Source: Erythrobacter sanguineus
GTDB taxonomy: Bacteria; Pseudomonadota; Alphaproteobacteria; Sphingomonadales; Sphingomonadaceae
Length of the DNA: 64,000 nucleotides
NCBI RefSeq assembly: GCF_900143235.1
Contig: NZ_FRDF01000002.1
Span: 1 to 64,000, forward strand
Direction: 5' to 3'
Shown: positions 18,361 through 23,696 of the stretch, one piece after another
Layout of the letters: every line of letters begins with the position of its first letter
Numbering within the stretch: position 1 is the first letter of the stretch
The notes under the pieces: generated by a model
What the model was told of the DNA's origin: nothing
Databases searched by the model: none
Seen by the model: the letters and a program-made list of their open reading frames with translations, nothing else
Made by a program: the position numbers and the translations under genes

Positions 18361-21300
18361 TCAGACATCATAATAGTCCTGCAATGACCGGACTTCAAGC
18401 TGCTCCGGCCCGACCGTGGCAATTGCCGCCGCCGCCGCCACCGAAGCAGTGGCGGTGGTGTAGTAGGGCACCTTGCCCGCCAGCGCCGCCTGACGGATCG
18501 ATTTGCTGTCCATCAGCGACTGCCAGCCTTCGGTGCTGTTGAAGATCAGCGCGATGTCGCCATCGATGATCCGGTCGACGATGTGCGGCTGGCCTTCGGC
18601 GACCTTGTTGACCCGTTCCACGGCAAGGCCCTGTTCGGCCAGCCAGGTTTGCGTGCCGCCGGTGGCGATGGCGGTAAAGCCATGCTCGATCAGGCGCCGC
18701 ACCGCCGGCAGGATTGCCGGCTTGTCGGTATCCTTGACCGAAACGAACAGCGTGCCCGCGCGCGGCAGGTTCATGCCCGCCCCGATCTGCGACTTGAGGA
18801 AGGCCGCCTCGAAGCTTTCATCAATGCCCATCACTTCGCCGGTCGATTTCATTTCCGGGCTCAGCACCGGGTCACAGCCGGGGAAGCGGGCAAAGGGGAA
18901 CACCGCTTCTTTCACCGACATGTAGGGCAGATCACGCTTGAACGGCTCGAAGCTCGACAGCGGCTCGCCCGCCATGACGCGCGCGGCGATCTTGGCCACT
19001 GGCTGCCCGGTCGCCTTGGCGACGAACGGCACGGTGCGGCTGGCGCGCGGGTTGACCTCGATCAGGAAGACGACCCCATCCTTCACCGCGAACTGCACAT
19101 TCATCAGCCCCTTCACGCCGAGCGCAAAGGCCAGCGCTTCGGTCTGTCGCTCCATTTCGGCGATGATTTCGGCGGGCAGAGAATAGGGCGGCAGGGTGCA
19201 GGCAGAATCACCCGAATGGACCCCGGCTTCCTCGATATGCTGCATCACGGCGGCCACCCGCACTTCGGTGCCATCGCACACCGCATCGACATCGCATTCG
19301 ATCGCATCGCGCAGATATTGATCGATCAGCACCGGACTGTCGCCCGACACATTGACCGCGGTGGCGATGTAATCATCGAGCTGCGCTTCGGAATCGACGA
19401 TCTCCATCGCCCGTCCGCCCAGCACATAGGACGGGCGCAGCAGCACCGGATAACCGATACGGGCGGCCACCGCCGCTGCCTCGTCACGGCTGCGGGCAAT
19501 CCCGTTTTCGGGCTGCTGGAGCTTCAGCTTGGCTACCAGCTTGGCAAAGCGTTCGCGGTCTTCGGCAAGATCGATCGCGTCGGGCGAGGTGCCGAGAATG
19601 GGGATGCCCGCATCCTCGAGCGCCTGCGCCAGCTTGAGCGGCGTCTGCCCGCCGAACTGCACGATCACGCCCACAAGCTCGCCGCTCTGCTGTTCCACCC
19701 GCAGGATTTCGAGCACGTCTTCAGCCGTCAGCGGCTCGAAATAAAGCCGGTCGGAGGTGTCGTAATCGGTCGAGACGGTTTCCGGGTTGCAGTTGACCAT
19801 GATCGTCTCGAAGGCCGGGCCATGCCATTCCTCACCCAGCGCGAAACAGGCATGGACGCAGCAGTAATCGAACTCGATCCCCTGCCCGATCCGGTTCGGC
19901 CCGCCGCCGAGGATGACGATCTTGCGCCGGTCGGACGGATTGGCCTCGCATTCAGGCCCAAAAGAACCGGAAACGCCAAAGCTGGGGGCTTCATAGGTCG
20001 AATACATATAGGGCGTGATCGCCTCGAACTCGGCGGCGCAGCTATCGATCCGCTTGAACACCGGGAAGACGCCGAGCTTGTGGCGCAGCGCCCTCACCTC
20101 GTCCTCACTGGTGGCCCCGGCCATGGCGACCAGTGCATCATGCAGCAGGCCAGACCGCTTGGCCTGCGTCTCGCCCATACCGCCCGCCACGCCGACAGAG
20201 CGCACCGCCAGCGTGGCGAGCCGCCGGTCGGAAAAGCCCATCGCCTTCAACCGCCGCAGCCCTTGCGCATCGCGTGGCAGCCCATCCTTCTGCACCTCGC
20301 GCTCGGCAGCGATGATGGCCTCGATCTGGCGCAGGAACCACGGATCGTAGAAGGTGACCGCGGCGATGTCCTCCAACGTAAGCCCCTCGCGGAAGGCCTG
20401 CCCGACCTTCAGCAACCGATCAGGCGTGCGGCGCGACAGGGCGGCATTGATGACATCGCGGCTTGCACCCTCCAGCTCGGGCACGCGGTTGAAGCCATCA
20501 AGGCCCGTCTCCAGCCCGCGCAGCGCCTTCTGCATCGATTCGGCGAAATTGCGGCCGATCGCCATGACCTCGCCGACCGATTTCATCGCGGTCGAAAGGT
20601 CATTGGCCGCGCCCTTGAACTTCTCGAAGGCAAAGCGCGGGATCTTGGTAACGACGTAATCGATGGTGGGTTCGAAACTGGCAGGTGTCGCCCCGGTGAT
20701 TTCGTTGGTCAGTTCGTCCAGCGTATATCCTACCGCCAGTTTCGCCGCGACGCGGGCGATGGGGAAGCCGGTCGCCTTGGATGCCAGCGCGGAAGACCGC
20801 GACACGCGCGGGTTCATCTCGATCACTATCAACCGGCCATCCTTGGGATTGACCGCGAACTGGACGTTGGAACCCCCTGTTTCGACACCGATTTCGCGCA
20901 GGCAAGCAATGCTCGCATTGCGCATGATCTGGTATTCCTTGTCGGTCAGCGTCAGCGCCGGAGCGACGGTGATGGAGTCCCCGGTGTGCACGCCCATCGG
21001 ATCGACGTTTTCGATGGCGCAGATGATGATCGCGTTATCCTTGCGGTCGCGCACCACCTCCATCTCGAACTCTTTCCACCCGAGCAGCGATTCCTCGATC
21101 AGCACTTCGGTGGTGGGCGAGGCATCGAGGCCTTCGCGCACGATCTGGTCGAATTCCGCCTTGTTGTAAGCGATCCCGCCGCCCGTGCCGCCAAGCGTGA
21201 AGCTGGGGCGGATGATCGAGGGCAAGCCCGTGCGCTCAAGGATCACACGCGCTTCTTCGAGCGTGTTGGCGATGCCCGACCGCGCGCTTTCGAGGCCGAT

Positions 21301-21714
21301 GCCGGTCATCGCATCGCGGAAACGCATCCGGTTTTCCGCCTTGTCGATGGCGTCGGCCTTGGCCCCGATCATCTCCACGCCGTATTTCGCCAGCGTGCCA
21401 TCGGCATCCAGCGCCAGCGCGCAGTTCAGCGCCGTCTGCCCGCCCATGGTGGGCAGCAACGCATCGGGCCGTTCCCTGGCGATGATCTTGGCGACGATAT
21501 CGGGCGTGATCGGCTCGATATAGGTCGCGTCGGCGAATTCCGGATCGGTCATGATCGTCGCCGGGTTGGAATTGACAAGGATGACGCGGTAGCCCTCCTC
21601 CTTCAACGCCTTGATCGCCTGCGTGCCGGAATAATCGAACTCGCACGCCTGCCCGATGATGATAGGGCCAGCGCCAATGACGAGGATCGAGGAAATGTCG
21701 GTTCTTTTGGGCAT
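18361..21714 (-). CDS. carB: Carbamoyl-phosphate synthase large subunit
   Basis: CarB makes carbamoyl phosphate for pyrimidine and arginine synthesis using ammonia from CarA. The start [17 protein letters not shown] (ATG at 21712-21714) gives 1117 aa, slightly above the E. coli length. Two homologous ATP-grasp halves are visible, each beginning with a nucleotide-binding strand ([19 protein letters not shown] and [19 protein letters not shown]). The C-terminal MGS-like regulatory domain contains [17 protein letters not shown]. Its ATG overlaps the stop of the preceding 99-aa gene (TAATG), so translation depends on the small gene upstream. The usual neighbour carA is separated from it by two small genes. 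Confidence 0.97.
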
Positions 21715-22013
21715 TATTGAGCACTCGGCAAAGAAGGAAGCTGGCCGGAATTGATCCAATTCCAAATGCTTTGATCCTGAGCGCCACCCATATTGTGGGG
21801 TTCAACTTCACTCAAAATGAATGGAGCACCATTCAGCATTGCCCGGAATGACGGGGCCAAGGTGTGAATCCCGACTTCAGATTTGAAGATACAGGTTCCA
21901 GCAAACGGAAAATACCAGTTAATTATATATCTGTTATTTCTGACAATTTCTTGGACTTGGTTAGGTGAAATCTTGGGATCGAAGGGATCATGAGAAAGGG
22001 AAAATGTCCTCAC
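21714..22013 (-). CDS. Hypothetical 99-aa protein coupled to carB
   Basis: The frame starts at ATG 22011-22013, overlapping the stop of the 123-aa gene by 4 bp, and stops at TAATG with the carB start. The product has no membrane segment or signal. It begins [13 protein letters not shown] and has an aromatic, Pro-rich centre ([14 protein letters not shown]) and a C-terminal block ending SIWNWINSG. Base composition is visibly lower in GC than that of carA or carB, suggesting later acquisition. I do not recognise the family. Tight coupling on both sides shows it is a real, translated gene. Confidence 0.75.
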
Positions 22014-22381
22014 TGCACATCTCCTGCGTCCAATTTTGGATTTTCAATCAATATCGGCTGACTGGAGACTTCAGCCTCGACCACTCCATCATCGGATTTA
22101 TAGCCAATACGTCCGACAATCTGCCGTTCAATAAGATACCGTTCAGATTGAAGCCGGTCGGGATCTTTTTTCATCCAGAAGTCATAAGCTCTGATCGAGT
22201 AGGCAATCGGCACGAAGGCAAGAACAGCGAAAAAATACTGCATTGGCCCATCACTCATGGCCGCCGCGCCAATTGCGAATGGAGTGGTCAGACCGGAAAT
22301 CCAGAGCATCGGGTTCATGGCACTTTTTGTGGCCACTTGGCGCGTTGTCTCAGCAATTCGGTCTATCTGCGGAAACATCAC
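22010..22381 (-). CDS. Hypothetical two-helix membrane protein coupled to carA
   Basis: The 123-aa product starts at ATG 22379-22381, overlapping the carA stop by 4 bp, and ends overlapping the next small gene by 4 bp. It has two adjacent membrane segments (MLWISGLTTPFAIGAAAM and YFFAVLAFVPIAYSIRAY), then a cytoplasmic-looking tail with FWMKKDPDRLQSERYLIER. The DPDRLQSE signature occurs, as I recall, in small two-TM hypothetical proteins of other Proteobacteria, but I know no function. Like its partner it is lower in GC than carA and carB. Confidence 0.75.
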   Translation of the reverse strand: MMFPQIDRIAETTRQVATKSAMNPMLWISGLTTPFAIGAAAMSDGPMQYFFAVLAFVPIAYSIRAYDFWMKKDPDRLQSERYLIERQIVGRIGYKSDDGVVEAEVSSQPILIENPKLDAGDVQ

Positions 22382-23556
22382 AGCCCCCCCACAAACTTCG
22401 AGAACAGGTAGAATGAATCCTGCGGCCCCGGCGATGCCTCAGGGTGATACTGCACCGCGAAGGCCCGTTTGCCCTTGATCGCAATCCCGCAATTCGTCCC
22501 GTCGAACAGCGAAACATGGGTCTGCTCGACATTCTCCGGCAGCGTGTCGACATCCACCGCGAAGCCGTGGTTCATCGAGGTGATCTCGACCAGCCCAGAC
22601 GTCTCCCCCCAGCCCTCGCCCACGCGCTGCACCGGATGGTTCGCGCCGCGGTGGCCCTGGTGCATCTTGATCGTCTTCGCGCCCGCGGCCAGTGCGAGGA
22701 GCTGGTGCCCCAGACAGATGCCGAACAGCGGCACGTCGGCCTCCAGCAGCGCGGCGATTACCGGCACCGCGTATTCCCCCGTAGCCGCCGGATCGCCGGG
22801 GCCGTTGGAGAGGAACACGCCATCAGGAGCCAGCGCCATGATCTCGTCAAACGAGGTTTTCACAGGCACCACCGTCACCCGCGCGCCGGCCTTCACCAGA
22901 TTGCGGAAGATATTGTCCTTCGCGCCGTAATCCACCGCGACCACATGCGGGGTCGCGTCACGCGCGGCGCGGCCGTAACCATGGCCGAGCCGCCAATATC
23001 CGCCCTCCCAGCTTTCCTGACTGTCGCGGGTGACGCGGATGGCCAGATCCATCCCCTCCAGCCCGGCCCAGCCCTGCGCGCGCGCTATCAAGGCAGGAAT
23101 GTCGAACTTGCCGTCCGGCGCATGGGCGATCACCGCATTGGGCGCGCCCGATTGGCGGATGCGGCGGGTGAGCGCGCGGGTATCGACGCCCGAAAGACCG
23201 ATCTTGCCCGCCTTTGCCATCCATTCGACAAAGCGTTCCGTGCTGCGGAAATTGCTCGGCTCGGTCACGTCCTCGCGCACCACGCAGCCAACCGCGCCTT
23301 CGACCCGGCTTTCGAAATCTTCCGGATTCGCGCCGACATTGCCGATATGCGGGAAGGTGAAGGTGACGATCTGCGCAGCGTAGCTGGGATCGGTCATCAC
23401 CTCCTGATAGCCGGTCATCGCGGTGTTGAAGCACACCTCGCCCACCGCAGAGCCAACCGCACCGAACCCGCGGCCCCAGATCACCGTGCCATCGGCCAGG
23501 ACAAGGCAACCGGTCGCGCCGGAAGGTTGCGCGCGGAAAGATGCGGGGTCGGCCAT
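22378..23556 (-). CDS. carA: Carbamoyl-phosphate synthase small (glutaminase) subunit
   Basis: CarA hydrolyses glutamine and channels ammonia to CarB. The start MADPASFRAQPSGATG (ATG at 23554-23556) gives 392 aa. The N-terminal domain contains FGAVGSAVGEVCFNTAMTGY. The class I glutamine amidotransferase domain has the nucleophile Cys in FGICLGHQLLALA and the His-Glu pair in YHPEASPGPQD. Four bases of its stop region are shared with the next small gene. The promoter should lie in the 140 bp shared with divergent yqeY. Confidence 0.96.
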   Translation of the reverse strand: MADPASFRAQPSGATGCLVLADGTVIWGRGFGAVGSAVGEVCFNTAMTGYQEVMTDPSYAAQIVTFTFPHIGNVGANPEDFESRVEGAVGCVVREDVTEPSNFRSTERFVEWMAKAGKIGLSGVDTRALTRRIRQSGAPNAVIAHAPDGKFDIPALIARAQGWAGLEGMDLAIRVTRDSQESWEGGYWRLGHGYGRAARDATPHVVAVDYGAKDNIFRNLVKAGARVTVVPVKTSFDEIMALAPDGVFLSNGPGDPAATGEYAVPVIAALLEADVPLFGICLGHQLLALAAGAKTIKMHQGHRGANHPVQRVGEGWGETSGLVEITSMNHGFAVDVDTLPENVEQTHVSLFDGTNCGIAIKGKRAFAVQYHPEASPGPQDSFYLFSKFVGGL

Positions 23557-23696
23557 GGGGCGCTCCGTTGCAGATAAAGCCAGCGATGTTGCTAAGTTTC
23601 GTCCGCTAGGCTCCATGGCCCCGCGCGTCAACCTAGGCTTGGGCCGATAATTGCGTTAGAGGCGCGCGCCAAAGTTCCATCCACAGGAAACACGTC

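Follow-up and report, generated by a model that had tools for sequence, protein, structure and literature searches.

The interval between carA and carB of Erythrobacter sanguineus holds two small overlapping genes that form a mobile cassette, and the interval itself is a hypervariable cargo slot within an essential operon. Taken as a whole, the locus is best explained as a mobile cassette in a variable coupled slot, with that of a small conflict module as the likeliest role of the cassette, and we lean slightly toward this account. The DNA analyzed is a stretch of 64,000 nucleotides of contig NZ_FRDF01000002.1 (the window).

The carA-carB locus in the window

All four genes lie on the minus strand in the order carA, gene 1, gene 2, and carB, with an overlap at each junction. 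carA (22378..23631) encodes the small (glutaminase) subunit of carbamoyl phosphate synthase (Pfam GATase, E 3.7e-52; CPSase_sm_chain, E 7.6e-49) and carB (18361..21714) encodes the large subunit (Pfam CPSase_L_D2, E 4.6e-102, and others). The slot between them measures 663 bp (21715..22377, minus strand) and is filled by gene 1 (22010..22378), which encodes a 122-aa protein with two hydrophobic segments and the motif DPDRLQSE after the second, and gene 2 (21714..22013), which encodes a 99-aa soluble protein with a predicted ferredoxin-like fold resembling Cas2/VapD. The assignment of gene 1 draws on phrog_27377, relatives in 40 loci, hydropathy, and motif conservation, and that of gene 2 on an AlphaFold2 model, a VIA-align match to BPSL1038, and its relatives. 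The junction of carA and gene 1 (22376..22381, minus strand) reads GTGATG and offers two starts for gene 1, an ATG at 22378 (122 aa; TGATG, 1-nt overlap) or a GTG at 22381 (123 aa; GTGA, 4-nt overlap). Gene 1 and gene 2 overlap by 4 nt in GTGA (22010..22013, minus strand), with GTG as the start codon of gene 2, and gene 2 meets carB in TAATG (21712..21716, minus strand), a 1-nt overlap. The first-pass annotation had placed two small genes here with the correct sizes (123 and 99 aa), order, and coordinates; its overlap at each junction and its TAATG before carB also stand, whereas the ATGA that it read at the first two junctions is GTGATG and GTGA. The lower GC content that it reported is likewise found, with 49.3% for gene 1 and 44.0% for gene 2 compared with 65.4% for carA and 63.5% for carB, and GC3 values of 0.50 and 0.44 compared with 0.80 and 0.82.

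A simple hydropathy scan positions the hydrophobic segments of gene 1 at residues 24-40 and 46-62, separated by a short loop, in agreement with the two-helix membrane protein proposed earlier. The tail after DPDRLQSE is ~43 residues long in the window. The profile phrog_27377, of unknown function, matches residues 6-115 of gene 1 (E 4.2e-17). Pfam and NCBIfam profile searches with both cassette proteins gave nothing usable, nor did tblastn of these proteins against plasmid records, a PDB sequence search, or single-protein scans of the genome-contig and viral-contig collections, one of which recovered only its own locus. PADLOC-DB 2.0.0 returned no family for either gene at E values up to 10, and tblastn with three queries gave no match among 50,697 phage records. 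A match of gene 2 to phrog_20469 was disregarded as weak (E 0.31).

A conserved two-gene family

Relatives of both genes, in the same order, are present in many genomes, so that the case in which the first-pass annotation would have called the frames spurious, a lack of any homologue, does not apply and the genes are genuine. A profile search with phrog_27377 on 396 genomes of the order gave matches in eight, of which five hold up, with six copies; the matches in G436, G427, and G259 (L136-L138) were set aside as frames without the pair. Four of the six copies lie between carA and carB (the window, L132, L134, and L135), and all six have a second gene of ~100-120 aa directly downstream. A scan for the conserved motif in the genomes of 84,980 species yielded 31 confirmed loci, most of the labels being Alpha-, Beta-, or Gammaproteobacteria, with a small number from further phyla. 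Three more loci came from IMG/VR. L143, which contains a stop codon, was set aside, as was a weak gene 2 match in L003, from a genome of another bacterial family, which has three stops and overlaps a long reverse gene.

Gene 2 follows gene 1 in 37 of the 40 loci (36 by profile, together with L163), the membrane gene is first in all 37, and the overlap between the two is 4 bp in 27 of these pairs. Gene 1 is without a partner in L147 and L168, L161 ends at a contig edge, and in L178 gene 1 is split over two frames. L172 and L174 are near-identical, so the count of 40 loci slightly overstates their independence. The partner genes were first recognized from frame position, and the cassette profiles were built from most of the same loci and therefore confirm rather than discover. 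Conservation in gene 1 is strongest in the stretch around DPDRLQSE, directly after the second hydrophobic segment, and the simple scan finds at least two hydropathy peaks in 28 of 35 family members and one in the other 7. That the two genes constitute a real two-gene cassette is practically certain.

Two loci depart from the usual arrangement. In genome G803 the cassettes stand in tandem (L142/L144), the second membrane gene being shortened and without a partner. The membrane gene of L168 (2259-3585), which has no Cas2-like partner, adjoins an HTH gene and a Panacea (DUF4065) antitoxin-like gene (by eye), possibly a partner swap.

Within the genus the pair was detected only in the window genome, which is the only one of 114 matched by the phrog_27377 profile and by the gene 2 profile. 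The gene 1 profile matches two of the 114, the second (L278, E 3.7e-4 in a 460-aa frame) being doubtful. Single-sequence searches of 80 relatives, 49 of them from the genus, revealed no other genus genome with the cassette, and profiles of neither gene matched at E 0.05 in 164 other carA-carB loci (97 from the genus and 67 from the order sample, three of the latter being genus repeats). Capture, which the first-pass annotation had only hinted at, is well supported by the low GC, the lack of a clear genus relative elsewhere, and the relatives in phage contigs and other places. The cassette is an unnamed two-gene family; the open-licence PMC literature holds no report of this gene pair among the matches listed.

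The predicted fold of the gene 2 protein

An AlphaFold2 model of the gene 2 protein made with 36 sequences (pLDDT 90.1, pTM 0.80) has its strands and helices in ferredoxin order. The best VIA-align match is 7vxr (BPSL1038, Cas2/VapD sub-family) with 83 residues aligned, an rmsd of 3.0, and a Z of 9.0, a value that is modest by the tool's own note and in a middling range that can reflect merely a common arrangement. The next rows are Cas2 chains (7mi4/7mid, Z 7.0; 6jhz, Z 6.7), two units below BPSL1038. With a shallower first model BPSL1038 again ranked first (Z 9.0), the next rows being metallochaperones (Z 8.3-8.1) and not Cas2. Foldseek alone gave weak generic ferredoxin-type matches, none with E below 0.001, and a search of the viral structure library also gave none below 0.001. 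No Cas2 family is present among the Pfam and NCBIfam matches of the 36 gene 2 members at E up to 0.1, and a PDB sequence-profile search gave no Cas2/VapD match; scattered weak Pfam and NCBIfam matches of single members were taken as chance. As modelled, the gene 2 protein appears to resemble Cas2/VapD proteins, a link that rests on fold.

In the text available from PMC10491678, BPSL1038 is defined by the motif D(X20)SST, whose aspartate is used by Cas2, VapD, and BPSL1038. The equivalent column of the gene 2 family, at the end of strand 1, holds Asp in 13 of 35 members, including D9 of the window protein, and otherwise S, N, Q, or others. The turn between strands 2 and 3 reads A38-G39-T40 in the window, and the columns of the SST and catalytic Ser vary over the 35 members. 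With Asp in 13 of 35 and no conserved SST turn, this would be a family of Cas2-like proteins that are not necessarily nucleases. The cassette is like the BPSL1038/Cas2-VapD nuclease sub-family, as far as the excerpted account of it goes, in predicted fold order and best structural match. It differs in that D(X20)SST is not conserved, that there is no sequence-level match, and that in 37 of 40 loci gene 2 is preceded by a gene for a membrane protein.

The described antitoxins of VapD are SH3-fold proteins or inactive VapD copies, according to the accessible part of PMC11980593. The cassette shares with such VapD-type toxin-antitoxin pairs two small neighboring genes, one with a Cas2-like ferredoxin fold, but its partner is a membrane protein and not VapX/VapY (SH3 fold) or VapW; in 37 loci the place of the antitoxin-type partner of VapXD, VapYD, or VapWD is taken by a gene matching the gene 1 membrane profile. 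Panoptes optSE is a two-gene operon that restrains a membrane effector with two transmembrane helices (PMC12657218, in the sections available), and the cassette likewise consists of two genes, for a small soluble protein and a protein with two transmembrane helices. In Panoptes, as far as those sections describe it, the mCpol synthase comes first and the S-2TM β-barrel effector second, whereas the cassette has the reverse order, with the membrane gene first in 37 of 37 pairs. By length, the tail of gene 1 is short (~43 residues after the motif in the window) and may lack the β-barrel of the S-2TM effector, and no Asp is conserved at 90% or more in gene 2. By the features compared, the cassette belongs to neither the Panoptes nor the VapD pairs, the likeness being one of logic to the former and of fold to the latter.

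Genomic settings and history of the cassette

The cassette is mobile. Its 40 loci comprise 5 between carA and carB, 11 after hisA, 4 in phage-like DNA, and 20 in varied places. The carA-carB copies are those of the window, L153 (the same as L132), L134, L135, and L159, and gene 2 meets carB by a 1-nt overlap in all five. In L135 and L159 an RraB-like gene (by eye) is located between carA and the pair and so precedes two distantly related cassettes in the same slot, like stacked cargo. The 11 his copies directly follow hisA, with hisF as the next gene in 10 and a contig edge in the remaining one; 10 of the 11 come from what we take to be Hyphomicrobiales-type organisms, the eleventh carrying the label Rhodovulum sp. 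PH10. In 7 of the 11, hisA and gene 1 share 4 nt, and in the 10 copies with hisF this gene starts at -4 to +3 nt relative to the end of gene 2. Of 28 hisA-hisF gaps measured in the best 30 HisF loci, 23 lie at -11 to +29 and the others at 70, 193, 207, and 873, with one mis-hit; by profiles, the cassette is absent from those best loci, and the hisA-hisF junction seems not to serve as a cargo slot in general. The long gaps without a cassette are those of L252 (873 bp), L257 (207 bp), and L263 (193 bp).

In phage-like DNA, the neighbors identified by PHROGs are a transcriptional regulator/repressor and a primase (L145), a portal and a major head protein (L146), a tail assembly protein (L158), and NinB and RusA (L166). 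Genome G430 (Sphingomonas sp. HITSZ_GF) has one carAB copy and a second copy in the phage-like L158 region. Some of the 20 other loci adjoin genes that by eye resemble toxin-antitoxin, restriction, or recombinase genes; the labels Panacea-like, SIR2-like, HigBA-like, DsbB-like, type I RM, and RraB-like (L135, L159) were all given by eye.

In a tree of 35 of the 40 loci, the window copy forms a group with L164 and two phage-like copies, L158 and L146 (support 99/96), the carAB copies L153, L134, and L159 group together (100) apart from the window, and L135 lies elsewhere again. At least three changes of site are required on the tree. A single clade of all five carAB copies is rejected (AU p 0.022), a result weakened by the fact that L135 was recognized as a carAB copy only after the tree had been seen; a single clade of the four first-recognized copies is not rejected (p 0.18). 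Judging from this tree, the cassette is likely to have entered the carAB slot independently more than once. Of the ten his copies included in the tree, nine fall into a single clade (100% support) with L160 outside it, and a clade of all ten is not rejected (p 0.23). The nine-copy clade looks like long vertical maintenance, which would also fit a housekeeping role.

The carA-carB interval as a cargo slot

The genus sample contains 114 genomes, with a carB match in 112. The region upstream of carB was taken for 97 besides the window, the 14 others left out having a partial match or one at a contig edge, and 2 of the 97 stretches are without carA, which leaves 95 and the window, or 96 measured genomes. 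The carA-carB gap in these ranges from 103 to 3653 bp (median 721.5) and is below 50 in none; the first-pass premise that carA and carB are normally adjacent is wrong for this genus. Same-strand ORFs of at least 70 aa cover at least 90% of the gap in 91 of the 96. In 90 genomes an ORF can begin between -20 and +5 nt relative to the carA stop. In 81 the end of an ORF lies between -3 and +20 nt relative to the carB start, 60 of these showing exactly the 1-nt overlap (TAATG or TGATG), and both sides fit in 79. The divergent carA-yqeY gap serves as a local control and does not exceed 124 bp in 92 of 94 genus genomes. At the neighboring yqeY-dnaG junction the gap is at most 221 bp in 70 of 93 and 446-858 bp in the remaining 23, compared with only 2 of 96 carA-carB gaps at or below 221 bp. 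Since the yqeY-dnaG gap is also variable, part of the slot variability is local. The yqeY-dnaG junction beside carA takes insertions too.

Beyond the genus, gaps of at least 200 bp occur in 38 of the 43 genomes measured within the same family vs 8 of 20 in the other families of the order, and the slot is common to the whole family. Empty sites in the relatives L197 and L211 join carA directly to carB through TAATG, which indicates that an occupied junction mostly keeps the coupling that an empty site has. The interval is a hypervariable, translationally coupled cargo slot within an essential operon, a description in which we have high confidence. Among the matches listed, the open-licence PMC literature contains no report of a hypervariable coupled carA-carB slot in sphingomonads.

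The genus and another 63 measured genomes from the order together have 223 slot ORFs of at least 40 aa. These group into 61 clusters, of which 19 contain at least two members; the clusters include some spurious short frames, e.g. K3 and K11, which are recurring frames overlapping carB. Slot content turns over quickly: at 90-95% identity (carA plus the start of carB), 16 of 32 genome pairs share any occupant family and 8 of 32 have an identical set. In the flanks, taken as the final 120 columns of carA and the initial 100 of carB, divergence is no greater in pairs with different occupants than in pairs with the same occupants, with a difference of ~1 point at both 90-95% and 87-90% identity, and hence no exchange footprint was found there. 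A Pfam family above the curated cut-off is matched by 4 of 20 scanned occupants (RraB, DUF6680, DUF1508, and a Tse3-like muramidase in L098), and one further occupant matches phrog_13799. The 3653-bp interval of L098 (genome G139) holds the T6SS_Tse3_cat muramidase effector (Pfam E 1e-46) and downstream ORFs; such a type VI secretion effector in the slot indicates that effector genes can dock in carA-carB too. The occupants of L188, L202, L229, L088, and L101 combine a soluble N-terminal part (winged-helix-like by eye) with a C-terminal hydrophobic helix and otherwise look unrelated, and those of L188, L229, L088, and L101 match no Pfam family above the curated cut-off.

Variable carA-carB intervals have precedents. 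A large, variable, and repeat-rich spacer without coupled ORFs is said to have been described in Neisseria by Lawson in 1995; it is similar in size and variability to the slot, which differs in having coupled ORFs in place of repeats. Pseudomonas aeruginosa and Xanthomonas citri carry an extra co-directional ORF between carA and carB, that of X. citri overlapping carA by one base and being co-transcribed (PMC4619228, whose available text also cites earlier work, Lu 1997 and Kwon 1994). The two ORFs are reported as dissimilar, with the data not shown there. The window likewise has co-directional ORFs at this position, but the known operons, in that partial account, have one ORF per species, whereas here the interval varies over 96 genus genomes with exact coupling and the window occupant is a mobile two-gene cassette. 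The presence of "alien" and "ORFan" genes in operons is itself already a known idea, as the accessible part of PMC10138114 indicates.

Discussion

The first-pass annotation tied both genes to the output of carbamoyl phosphate synthase. A pair that regulates CarAB, or anchors it to the membrane, and so tunes carbamoyl phosphate output would be consistent with the exact coupling at this site. Glutamine amidotransferase pairs are formed by CarA-CarB as well as by HisH-HisF, and the cassette lies directly upstream of the synthase gene in both operons (carB and hisF), a curious coincidence that would also fit such a role. However, numerous unrelated families occupy the slot (223 ORFs in 61 clusters, some spurious), the gene 2 profile has no copy in 113 of 114 genus genomes, and neither profile matches in the 164 other carA-carB loci. 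The pair also occurs after hisA (11 loci) and in phage-like DNA, and its carAB copies do not form one clade, which argues against a CarAB-specific regulator and makes this role very unlikely. With the pair in these other settings and dozens of unrelated clusters in the slot, interest shifts from CarAB to the mobile family and the family-wide slot. A pair of benefit to phages that was captured by the host, such as a superinfection exclusion system or a lysogenic-conversion moron in which a membrane hairpin tuned by its partner prevents DNA from entering, is rather unlikely; phage genes close to the cassette in L145, L146, L158, and L166 and the match to phrog_27377 favor it, but 16 of the 40 loci are in biosynthetic operons and the three queries had no match among 50,697 phage records.

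The fold match to BPSL1038 and Cas2, together with Asp9 at the end of the first strand in the window protein, would suit a toxin-antitoxin system of the VapD kind, with the ferredoxin-fold protein as nuclease toxin and the membrane protein as tether or antitoxin. Given that this Asp is found in 13 of 35 members, that the SST-type turn is not conserved, and that the antitoxins described in the consulted part of PMC11980593 are SH3-fold proteins or inactive VapD copies, we consider it improbable. The slot might instead gather near-neutral hitchhikers, the pair having no conflict role and being tolerated for keeping carB translation coupled, as its fast turnover and many occupant families of unknown function could suggest. 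The gene order, usual overlap, motif, and aligned fold positions are nevertheless kept in loci from several phyla, indicating that both proteins are under selection somewhere, and we regard this explanation as unlikely. That both frames are spurious, as their absence from Pfam and NCBIfam might suggest, has virtually no probability and is refuted by the conservation that both genes show at the protein level across dozens of loci.

The earlier description of a selfish or defence-like pair that uses an essential operon as host appears to fit the anatomy best. Whether the cassette has a conflict or phage-related function, anti-phage or addiction, is in our judgment an even question on the sequence evidence, action on phages being inferred from the phage-like neighborhoods and the mobility; against such a role, the commonest occupants of the slot in the genus look non-defence, resembling lipoproteins or secreted proteins by eye. 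An effector-plus-restrainer mechanism is a tentative proposal, though the best supported of the models considered. The gene 1 protein would be a two-helix hairpin with both ends inside, the C-terminal tail with DPDRLQSE facing the cytosol, and its role would be that of a membrane effector or exclusion factor. Its ferredoxin-fold partner could bind this tail and restrain it, or could sense a trigger such as phage infection or nucleic acid. The coupled junction of an essential biosynthetic operon, of the TAATG/ATGA type, would serve as an expression dock: a cassette placed there would be expressed constantly without a promoter of its own, in step with a housekeeping enzyme, and its loss would be difficult without harming translation of the downstream gene. 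A bolder proposal, and a doubtful one, is that the coupled carA-carB junction serves sphingomonads as a permanent docking site for exchangeable accessory genes, the cargo stop overlapping the carB start so that cargo would be expressed together with an essential enzyme and not readily lost. The pair in the window would then be an immune or addiction system not described before, in which a Cas2-like protein with its catalytic site largely lost restrains a membrane effector, and it would have entered carAB on at least three occasions and hisA-hisF in a separate event.

Hotspots of accessory genes are usually pictured beside tRNAs or phages or between operons, whereas here the hotspot is inside a translationally coupled essential operon, with cargo spliced in at single-codon precision. 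The slot opens a new location in which to search for small genes of defence, toxins, and secreted proteins, and it suggests a strategy, the scanning of coupled core-gene pairs for occupied junctions. It also makes it possible to test concretely how cargo is protected from loss by coupling, and the membrane/Cas2-like pair, a conserved unnamed family, is directly testable in E. coli.
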